Notes under the pieces: model-generated
The model's input: the letters and a program-made list of their open reading frames with translations, nothing else
What the model was told of the DNA's origin: nothing
Database searches by the model: none
From: Aureispira sp.
GTDB taxonomy: Bacteria; Bacteroidota; Bacteroidia; Chitinophagales; Saprospiraceae
DNA length: 64,000 nt
Direction: 5' to 3'
Assembly (NCBI GenBank): GCA_024222455.1
Contig: JAAEPD010000453.1
Location: 1 to 64,000 of the forward strand
Position numbers and translations under genes: made by a program
In this document: positions 42,385 through 46,013 of the stretch, piece by piece
Layout of the letters: every line of letters begins with the position of its first letter
How positions within the stretch are numbered: the stretch's first letter is position 1

Positions 42385-43734
42385 ATGCTTTCCCCTACTG
42401 CTAAAAATGCACACACCATTGGCAAGGAATTAACCTGGCTTTCTAAGGTAATAGATACTCGCATCAAACTTTATTTTGGTAAAGAATGTGATTATTCCAA
42501 TGTATTTGAGGTTCCCATGCCTAATTTGGACGATGATGCTTCTATTTATGCTCGAATTGTGAAGCATTTTAATATGAGTTTTCAAGAACGCATAATGCTC
42601 ACCTTGAGCATGGCTCCACACATCAACCCTCAAATATTAGATATATTTTTCACCAAGAATAAGACCTACGACCGTATTTACACTGAATTTGGAGGTCTTA
42701 AGGGGCGTTATCATAGTGGATTTTTGCCTACAGGCGAAACAGCTTCGTTTATATTGGCAGGCAACGATTTGGAAGAACGTATCAAACTGATTGAGTTGTT
42801 CAAACCAGAACATTTCTTTTTTAAGCATAATGTACTAAAACTAGATATACATCGTAGCAATGAGCCTTTGTTGAGTAGTGGTGTAGAGATTAGTGATGAA
42901 TATTTAACCTTCCTAACTTCCGGGAAGCCTTATAAACCTGACTTTAGTACTAAATTCCCAGCCAAACGCCTTTCTACGCGCCTAGATTGGTCTGATTTGG
43001 TATTAGATCCTCATGTACTGGCTGAAGTTTCAGAACTTTCAGCTTGGTTGGAACACCAAGAAACCATTATGAACAAATGGGGGCTGAGCAAACAACTCAA
43101 ACGAGGCTATAGAGCTTTATTTTATGGCCCTCCAGGTACAGGTAAAACACTAACAGCTTGCTTGATTGGTAAATCTACTTCATTAGAAGTATATCGTATT
43201 GATCTCTCTCAGGTAGTTTCTAAATATATTGGAGAAACAGAGAAAAACATGGCCAATATATTTGACCAAGCTGAAAATAAGAACTGGATTCTGTTTTTTG
43301 ATGAGGCCGATGCTCTATTTGGCAAACGTACAGCCACATCCGACTCTAAAGATAGACATGCCAACCAAGAGGTAGCTTACTTGCTACAGCGAGTAGAAGA
43401 TTTTCCAGGAGTAGTTATTTTGGCAACCAACCTCAAGGCTAATATGGATATTGCCTTTACTCGACGTTTCCAATCTATGATATATTTCCCTGCTCCCAAT
43501 GTAGAGCAACGTTATAAGATTTGGACCAATACTTTTGAAGGGAAAGTCAAACTAGATGAGGATGTTGATTTTGGTATTATTTCTAACAAATACAAAGTGA
43601 CTGGAGGTAATATTATCAATGTCCTACGTTTCTGTTCCCTATCCGCATTAAGGAGAGGAAGTGATGTGGTTTGTATGGAAGATATACAAGAAGGAATCAA
43701 AAAAGAACTACGCAAAGAAGGAAAAACTATGTAA
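42385..43734 (+). CDS. AAA+ ATPase with large unassigned N-terminal domain
   Basis: A 449-residue cytoplasmic ATPase. Walker A GPPGTGKT is at 248-255, Walker B ILFFDEAD at 302-309 with the FGKR tail, a sensor/arginine-finger region (ATNLKANMDIAFTRRFQ) and a C-terminal lid. This is an FtsH/Cdc48-like classic AAA module. The first 230 residues form a separate domain with MLTLSMAPHINPQILDIFF and the segment FGGLKGRYHSGFLPTGETA, which I associate with ATPases found beside contractile-injection systems; no such genes are nearby. It probably remodels or unfolds a protein partner. Confidence 0.82.
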   Translation: MLSPTAKNAHTIGKELTWLSKVIDTRIKLYFGKECDYSNVFEVPMPNLDDDASIYARIVKHFNMSFQERIMLTLSMAPHINPQILDIFFTKNKTYDRIYTEFGGLKGRYHSGFLPTGETASFILAGNDLEERIKLIELFKPEHFFFKHNVLKLDIHRSNEPLLSSGVEISDEYLTFLTSGKPYKPDFSTKFPAKRLSTRLDWSDLVLDPHVLAEVSELSAWLEHQETIMNKWGLSKQLKRGYRALFYGPPGTGKTLTACLIGKSTSLEVYRIDLSQVVSKYIGETEKNMANIFDQAENKNWILFFDEADALFGKRTATSDSKDRHANQEVAYLLQRVEDFPGVVILATNLKANMDIAFTRRFQSMIYFPAPNVEQRYKIWTNTFEGKVKLDEDVDFGIISNKYKVTGGNIINVLRFCSLSALRRGSDVVCMEDIQEGIKKELRKEGKTM

Positions 43735-43949: not shown

Positions 43950-44858
43950 ATGAGTGCAATGAAAACGAAAGGTAGCCTTAGGGCTCAGCGGATTATAAAT
44001 AGCAATTGGTTTAATTTTGCGATTCTACTACTTATTGTTATCAATGGTATCCTCATTGGAGTACAGACCTATGATGGTGTTCCTGAGTACGTGCACTATA
44101 TCCAATTATTTATTATTTCCATTTTCTTTTTAGAGGTTATAATACGATGGAAAGGGCGAACCTCTACACAAGACTATATTTCAGACTGGTGGAACTGGTT
44201 CGATATTTTTATATTGGTCGTTGGTATTGTTCCAGAAGTAGCAGACATCCTAGTACAACATCAAGGTGGCGAAAGCCAAAATAGTGTTTGGGCTACACTT
44301 CGAGTACTTCGTATTATTCAATTAACTCGTTCTATTCGAGCTATAGAAGAACTGCGTGTATTGATTGGAGTATTGATTCGTTCTATTCGATCACTCTCCT
44401 ATATTGCTGTATTGTTTCTGCTTATCATGTACATCTATGCAATTATTGGAGTTACATTATTCAAAAACCACGATTATCAAAATTCTGAACATTTAGAATT
44501 AACTATAAGTAATCCAGACCCCTATGGGGATCTCTTCGAAGCCTTTTTCACTCTATTTCGTATCCTAACAGGAGAAGATTGGACGGATTTGCGCTATAAC
44601 TTGCTCAATAATGAGCATACCCAACAAGTTACAACAAAAACTGTCTTTATAGATGGCAAAGAAGTTGAAGTCGAAGTTGGGGGGCATACCATCCCTGCTA
44701 CCTCCAATACAACAGTTACAATTTATCATGTATCCTGGATGGTTGTAGCAGCCTATCTTATGATGAACTTGGTTGTCGGTGCCATTGTGAACAATTTCCA
44801 ATTGGTATTGGATGCTCAACGAGAAGAAGAAGAAGCGAAAAAAAATTCTAAAGAATAA
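43950..44858 (+). CDS. One-repeat voltage-gated cation channel (BacNav/Cav-like)
   Basis: A 302-residue six-helix channel subunit. S1 (about 20-38), S2, S3 (83-97), S4 (116-130) with arginines at 118, 121, 127 and 130, S5 (150-170), pore and S6 (258-285). The selectivity filter TGEDW (207-211) supplies a Glu/Asp ring and equals the sequence used by animal Ca2+-channel repeats, so Ca2+ or mixed permeability is possible. An extra ~40-residue segment (215-255) lies between filter and S6, and a Glu-rich C-terminal tail follows. Four copies would form the channel in the inner membrane. The knot gene starts 17 bases later. Confidence 0.9.
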   Translation: MSAMKTKGSLRAQRIINSNWFNFAILLLIVINGILIGVQTYDGVPEYVHYIQLFIISIFFLEVIIRWKGRTSTQDYISDWWNWFDIFILVVGIVPEVADILVQHQGGESQNSVWATLRVLRIIQLTRSIRAIEELRVLIGVLIRSIRSLSYIAVLFLLIMYIYAIIGVTLFKNHDYQNSEHLELTISNPDPYGDLFEAFFTLFRILTGEDWTDLRYNLLNNEHTQQVTTKTVFIDGKEVEVEVGGHTIPATSNTTVTIYHVSWMVVAAYLMMNLVVGAIVNNFQLVLDAQREEEEAKKNSKE

Positions 44859-44875
44859 TCTAAACCCTACATCTA

Positions 44876-45118
44876 ATGTCTAGAGAACTTGCTAATAAAG
44901 TTTATGGTAAAATAAAACTAGTGGATAGCTTTCCTGACTACAAAGTAAAAGTAGTGGACAGCTTTGCTGACTTGCATGTTCAAAAAGTTAGTAGCTTTGC
45001 AGATAGTCCTGGTAAATGGGAAATCGTAACTAGTTTTGAAGACTATAAAGTACAGGTTGTAGATAGTTTTGAAGATTTTAAGATCAAATATGTCAGTAGT
45101 TTCCCTGGACCTCAATAA
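44876..45118 (+). CDS. Septoil (7_1) knot-fold small protein
   Basis: An 80-residue protein made of six near-identical units of the form K-V-x-x-V-D-S-F-x-D. The Ser-Phe pairs fall at 18-19, 29-30, 40-41, 53-54, 64-65 and 75-76, eleven residues apart except for a 13-residue central step containing SPGKW. This is the sequence pattern of the family formerly DUF6150 and now called the 7(1) septoil knot, whose backbone is reported as a very complex knot. No enzyme activity is known. It follows the ion-channel gene by 17 bases on the same strand, so co-expression is likely. Confidence 0.85.
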   Translation: MSRELANKVYGKIKLVDSFPDYKVKVVDSFADLHVQKVSSFADSPGKWEIVTSFEDYKVQVVDSFEDFKIKYVSSFPGPQ

Positions 45119-45201: not shown

Positions 45202-45240
45202 ATGTAACATTGAACTAGGTTTTTAGAATAAGCTATATAT

Positions 45241-45298
45241 AAGCATAAAAAAAATAGCGATGGCCCAAGCAAGAAGGATCATCGCTATTTTTATGCTT
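45241..45298 (-). terminator. Terminator at the end of the lipoprotein gene
   Basis: AAGCATAAAA..TAGCGATG and CATCGCTATTTTTATGCTT form a long stem (three extra As bulge out) with T-rich ends; convergent use by the knot operon from the left and the lipoprotein gene from the right is possible. Confidence 0.75.
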
Positions 45299-45323
45299 AA
45301 AGAGTTGCTTAGAACTCTAACTC

Positions 45324-46013
45324 TCATGCTTCTTTTAGTGTCCTACAGCTACTACCGTCAATCTTAGTCTCTACTACTCCATATAACACAACTTCTTGGT
45401 CTTTATAACGCTCTAAATTATCTACATCACTATCAAAAGCAGCATTAAACATTTTAGGCTTAGCCTCGCCCGTTCTTTGAACAGCAAGAAATTTACCCAT
45501 ATCACTTTTTGATCCATTACTATACATTGCATTGATAGTAAACTCTGCATCTTCCATATTCGTTTTTACAGCAGCTTGATAACCATCTTCGGCACTAAGA
45601 CCAGCCACAGCTGTTTCTATATCTTCGGTAGCTAATCGTACACCTGTTATTAGGGTATCTTGCTTTACTTTATATCGTATATTAAGATGAGTACCTGCAG
45701 GAAAATCACCTGCTTTAGGACCATTCACATTAAATTGAAATTCTTGGCCTTTTTCACCTTTGAGTTGTACACCTAATTCCGCACCATTACCTGTAGCAAA
45801 AGCTTTTACAACTTCACCTTCAAACATTTTAGAATTGGCCCCCTCATCTCCATGAAGACCAAATTCAGGATGTTGATAAACAGTAGTCATTTGGGGAGCT
45901 GCTTCCATAAAATTTTTAGATGCCATAGATGAACCTGTTTCAGATACATCAACATCACAAGCCACCATGCCAAATACAAGGCCTGCAGCAACTAGGAGTC
46001 CATACTTTTTCAT
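45324..46013 (-). CDS. Hypothetical lipoprotein
   Basis: A 229-residue protein with a lipoprotein leader (VFGMVACD, Cys19). The mature part has no recognised domain; it is acidic and strand-rich, with an OB-like feel in the last third (YKDQEVVLYGVVETKIDG) that suggests a small-molecule- or protein-binding barrel. It has a well-formed promoter 20 bases upstream, giving a very short leader, and a terminator downstream, so it is expressed on its own. Confidence 0.7.
   Translation of the reverse strand: MKKYGLLVAAGLVFGMVACDVDVSETGSSMASKNFMEAAPQMTTVYQHPEFGLHGDEGANSKMFEGEVVKAFATGNGAELGVQLKGEKGQEFQFNVNGPKAGDFPAGTHLNIRYKVKQDTLITGVRLATEDIETAVAGLSAEDGYQAAVKTNMEDAEFTINAMYSNGSKSDMGKFLAVQRTGEAKPKMFNAAFDSDVDNLERYKDQEVVLYGVVETKIDGSSCRTLKEA

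Follow-up and report, generated by a model that had tools for sequence, protein, structure and literature searches.

The window, a 64,000-nucleotide stretch of a contig from Aureispira sp., contains a gene for an 80-residue protein at 44876..45118 on the plus strand whose product is a further member of a rare, already known knotted fold family. The gene is real and its placement looks incidental. In our judgment it is probably best explained as a mobile, stand-alone accessory gene whose product is a very small, knotted beta-protein with the fold of the Ureaplasma protein Q9PR55 (UU089.1), and it lies only incidentally behind a voltage-gated channel gene. This reading draws on the gene itself, its homology, the fold match, a patchy spread across phyla, the absence of any partner gene that recurs, signal-peptide-like N-termini in most members of the family, and carriage by prophages.

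The knot-protein gene and its product

The open reading frame at 44876-45118 (+) starts with ATG, and a longer start is excluded by an in-frame TAA at 44861-44863. This confirms the 80-residue product given in a preliminary description of the window, and the product has neither a signal peptide nor a cysteine. Six V-x-S-F units are present, centred on S18, S29, S40, S53, S64, and S75. An 11-residue spacing had been claimed for all six, which is correct for every step except that from the third to the fourth unit; the steps are 11, 11, 13, 11, and 11, the longer one being due to an insert around SPGKW. The 11-residue periodicity of the protein is far above chance, with 23 lag-11 identities, whereas 20,000 shuffles averaged 5.2 and never exceeded 16. 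In the family alignment the repeat Asp is invariant at D21, D32, and D56. Invariant positions other than those of the repeat are limited to G11, G46, and W48, the last two of which form a G-x-W loop that interrupts the repeat.

Relationship to the knotted protein Q9PR55

Among all Protein Data Bank chains, the only match to the window protein was Q9PR55 (PDB 8iwa), with an E-value of 3.7e-10 when the window sequence alone was compared using phmmer and 1.2e-13 when a family profile of 50 rows was used, the profile match coming as two pieces in swapped order. To our knowledge, the 7_1 knot of Q9PR55 is the most complex among proteins with a solved structure. The knot was predicted by AlphaFold, together with a 5_1 knot in P73136 of Synechocystis, a probable homologue with 48% identity that winds once fewer than Q9PR55 (PMC9278004). 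The 7_1 knot has since been confirmed by X-ray crystallography (PMC11223836; PMC13352647), and crystal structures are available as PDB entries 8iwa, 8iwb, 8iwc, 8jrm, and 8w68.

The window protein and Q9PR55 share an 11-residue V-x-S-F-P-D repeat and are similar in size. However, the V-x-S-F units number six in the window protein, which has a single step of 13 and the G-x-W insert, whereas Q9PR55 has five units and two steps of 13, and the N-terminus of the window protein is the shorter of the two. Structure prediction of the protein alone, which the preliminary description had proposed as a check, gave a confident model of six strands (AlphaFold2 with the 50-row alignment, pLDDT 93.6) that shares the backbone arrangement of the Q9PR55 crystals. 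Compared by VIA-align with entry 8iwb, residues 1-79 of the model aligned with residues 13-84 of the Q9PR55 chain at 2.2 Å over 67 residues and a Z score of 8.3, a value that is uncalibrated; the intended yardstick was AlphaFold2 models of four clostridial close relatives of Q9PR55, for which the pLDDT was only 35. Foldseek also ranked the Q9PR55 entries at the top, but with an alignment rmsd of 10 Å. The repeats permit several registers in the superposition of model and crystal, the register of the modelled match is ambiguous, and one of the proteins may contain a repeat unit more than the other. Because the aligned range covers the reported knotted core (27-83), the window chain is predicted to be knotted, and the model makes a knot of the 7_1 or 5_1 type likely. 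Judging from the aligned ranges, the window chain may stop only one or two residues past the knotted core.

The homology to Q9PR55 and the agreement of the model with solved structures support the earlier assignment to a knot family. The name used for that family, septoil, was not found in those of the papers searched that deal with both knots and proteins. No model in the Pfam and NCBIfam versions searched matched the window protein above the cut-off, and these versions do not recognise the knot family in it. The profile of DUF6150 (PF19647), which we had presumed might be the family of the knot protein, matched nothing in the genome and nothing in the controls either, so that this result says little.

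The channel gene and the local neighbourhood

Immediately upstream, at 43950..44858 (+), lies a gene for a protein of 302 amino acids with one six-helix repeat, whose stop codon is the TAA at 44856-44858. Its identification as a voltage-gated cation channel in the preliminary description is borne out by a match to Ion_trans (PF00520) at 3.8e-42, by the S4 arginines RVLRIIQLTRSIR, and by the pore filter TGEDWTD. When aligned to Cav and Nav chains from the Protein Data Bank, the selectivity filter ILTGEDWTD resembles ILTGEDWN of Cav domain II, and we infer from the filter that the channel is of the calcium type. The gap to the knot gene on the same strand is exactly the 17 bases reported earlier (44859..44875), and neither a promoter-like nor a terminator-like site was found in it on the plus strand. 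Downstream of the knot gene, a long hairpin with an A/U-rich base occupies 45240..45299 (fold z-score -5.9, a stability reached by none of 200 shuffled sequences), and beyond it is a convergent gene at 45324-46013 (-). The hairpin is a probable bidirectional terminator, and because it lies after the knot gene, the channel and knot genes probably share a transcript. Upstream of the channel is an AAA ATPase (42385-43734) with partial resemblance to IetA-type anti-phage ATPases; PADLOC returned no match for the knot protein or the channel.

This arrangement is compatible with a role of the knot protein in the cytoplasm as a channel subunit or stabiliser. The short gap on one strand, the lack of a promoter-like site within it, and the position of the hairpin all favour such a pairing, and a protein with no signal peptide would stay on the cytoplasmic side, where the tail of the channel is. 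A calcium or cation buffer is a second possibility, in which the repeat Asp would bind ions admitted by the channel, consistent with the invariance of D21, D32, and D56 and with the Cav-like filter. The Asp residues are, however, equally conserved in members with no channel nearby and are thus more simply explained as structural turn residues of the repeat, and we regard the buffer as highly improbable.

The channel-knot pairing does not recur in the genomes surveyed

A role as channel subunit, ion buffer, or stabiliser, as put forward in the preliminary description, depends on how often the two genes are neighbours. We collected 62 knot loci from GTDB genomes and 6 from relatives, two of which (L021 and L064) are on the same contig, leaving 67 distinct loci. 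No homologue of the channel was detected by tblastn around these 67 other loci in flanks of up to 6 kb per side for the GTDB loci and about 1.5 kb for the relatives. A search with Ion_trans of 57 knot-bearing genome records found at least one channel in 36, and knot positions were taken in 35 of these, G462 being omitted as it has the genes in the same places as G029. The knot gene is beside an Ion_trans channel in 1 of the 35 genomes with both, and this is the window's own genome; in the other 34, the two genes are on different contigs or are separated by at least some 100 kb. In one same-family genome, two channels of about 69% identity and a knot gene occupy three different contigs, and the genes adjoining these channels are unrelated ones. 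The survey spans same-family and more distant genomes, with the window's own as the only one of its genus, and the two genes may still be paired within that lineage.

The genome search that had been set beforehand as a test of the pairing thus showed no recurrence, and the knot gene behind the channel looks like a one-off placement. Given this, the different neighbours of the same-family channels in a genome that does have a knot gene, and the exported appearance of most relatives (see below), we consider a role as channel subunit or stabiliser very unlikely for the knot protein. A recurring partner of any other kind, sought by Pfam and clustering among 141 representative neighbour proteins, was also not found; the neighbours match 159 Pfam families, of which the commonest, methyltransferases, occurs only four times.

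Spread and export across the family

The 62 loci are distributed over Bacteroidota, Pseudomonadota, Verrucomicrobiota, Nitrospirota, Bacillota, and others. Carriage is patchy: the gene occurs in 11 of the 392 genomes from the phylum and, counting the window's own genome, in 7 of 61 near relatives. The window protein shares 80% identity with a Chlorobi protein and 75-77% with gammaproteobacterial ones, but only 55-59% with three copies from its own family. The knot-protein tree mixes phyla, although with 78 columns it is too short to fix transfer directions. Taken together, the sequence relationships suggest horizontal transfer of the knot gene. One same-family copy, that of G029, is 68% identical to the window protein and also has no signal peptide, and given this copy, vertical inheritance may account for some of the spread.

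An N-terminus resembling a signal peptide is present in 70 of 90 members according to a crude hydrophobicity rule rather than a trained predictor, with the calls for L005, L006, and L042 doubtful. The window protein has none, as is also the case for its nearest neighbours in the tree from Chlorobi (L002) and Flavobacterium (L008), and it is predicted from its sequence to be cytoplasmic. Cysteine pairs are expected in exported proteins, and in this family they are confined to members with a signal peptide. In four exported members (L054, L056, L059, and L069), cysteines lie at both ends of the knotted region, where a disulfide could close the knot covalently.

Several loci contain further or altered copies. 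In L058 (from 1244), a single frame runs on to cover another knot-like repeat region, which is degenerate, and at L015 and L029 a second, diverged knot gene is located nearby. At L095 (G088) and L101 (G198), a stop lies in frame within the matched region, indicating either decayed copies or matches that cross a stop.

Knot genes in prophages

Residues 7-78 of the window protein match PHROG 6462, a phage protein family with no assigned function, at 2.9e-23, and homologues of the knot gene were found in 14 viral contigs. In Leptospira prophages, a knot gene with a signal peptide is located within the baseplate operon (L117:5917-6231, and about 7923-8231 in L108-L115), where it begins 3 bases after a small baseplate-region gene and overlaps baseplate J by 4 in 7 of 7 contigs checked. 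The same position is occupied in a Leptospira weilii plasmid, where the gene is annotated as hypothetical. Several neighbours belong to PHROGs families of baseplate hub and wedge proteins. A paper on Leptospira transposable prophages makes no mention of a knot or a signal peptide. Elsewhere, knot genes with signal peptides lie among tail genes and are read in the opposite direction (L107:7875-8228, L103:7917-8243, L104:7917-8243, and L102:7845-8243), an arrangement that is common for phage conversion genes.

These copies raise the possibility that the knot gene is a phage-derived conversion gene, or moron, spread by temperate phages and acting at the lysogen's envelope or late in infection. 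The PHROG 6462 match with its 14 viral contigs, the constant place of the Leptospira copies in the baseplate operon, and the opposite-strand copies in L102-L104 and L107 are all consistent with this. Nevertheless, most chromosomal knot loci have no phage structural genes beside them, no match to the knot protein was found in 50,697 phage records, and the flanks of the window copy, namely the AAA ATPase, the channel, and an ABC transporter, are not phage-like. On balance, we find a conversion gene rather unlikely as the explanation of the window copy. The Leptospira and tail-gene prophage copies differ from the window copy, a chromosomal one, in having signal peptides. A Foldseek search against viral structures gave nothing significant.

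Proposed role and implications

According to the reading that we prefer, a stand-alone mobile accessory gene, the usual family member would be exported to the cell envelope and act alone, and the window protein would belong to the minority with no signal peptide that stays in the cytoplasm. Its gene would have landed behind a gene for a calcium-type channel and would probably be read from the channel promoter, without its product being a part of the channel. The most likely activity might be binding to one partner, which the protein, itself resistant to proteases, would block or cap. As G11, G46, and W48 are the only invariants outside of the repeat, the G-x-W loop is the best guess for the contact site, and a binder that makes contact through G46 and W48 is a speculative prediction that we consider rather unlikely to be correct.

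The findings indicate that the 7_1-knot family is highly conserved across phyla and is not a curiosity of Ureaplasma, and the window protein contributes an 80-residue, cysteine-free member suited to folding studies. Export, together with the location in prophage late operons, is a better functional lead than the channel. On a reading that is bolder and that we find rather unlikely, the knotted family would consist of widespread mobile, mostly exported proteins carried by temperate phages in or beside their tail genes. If true, this would place the function of the family at the cell envelope, in the interplay between phage and host, and the most complex protein knot known would for the first time be set in a functional context.
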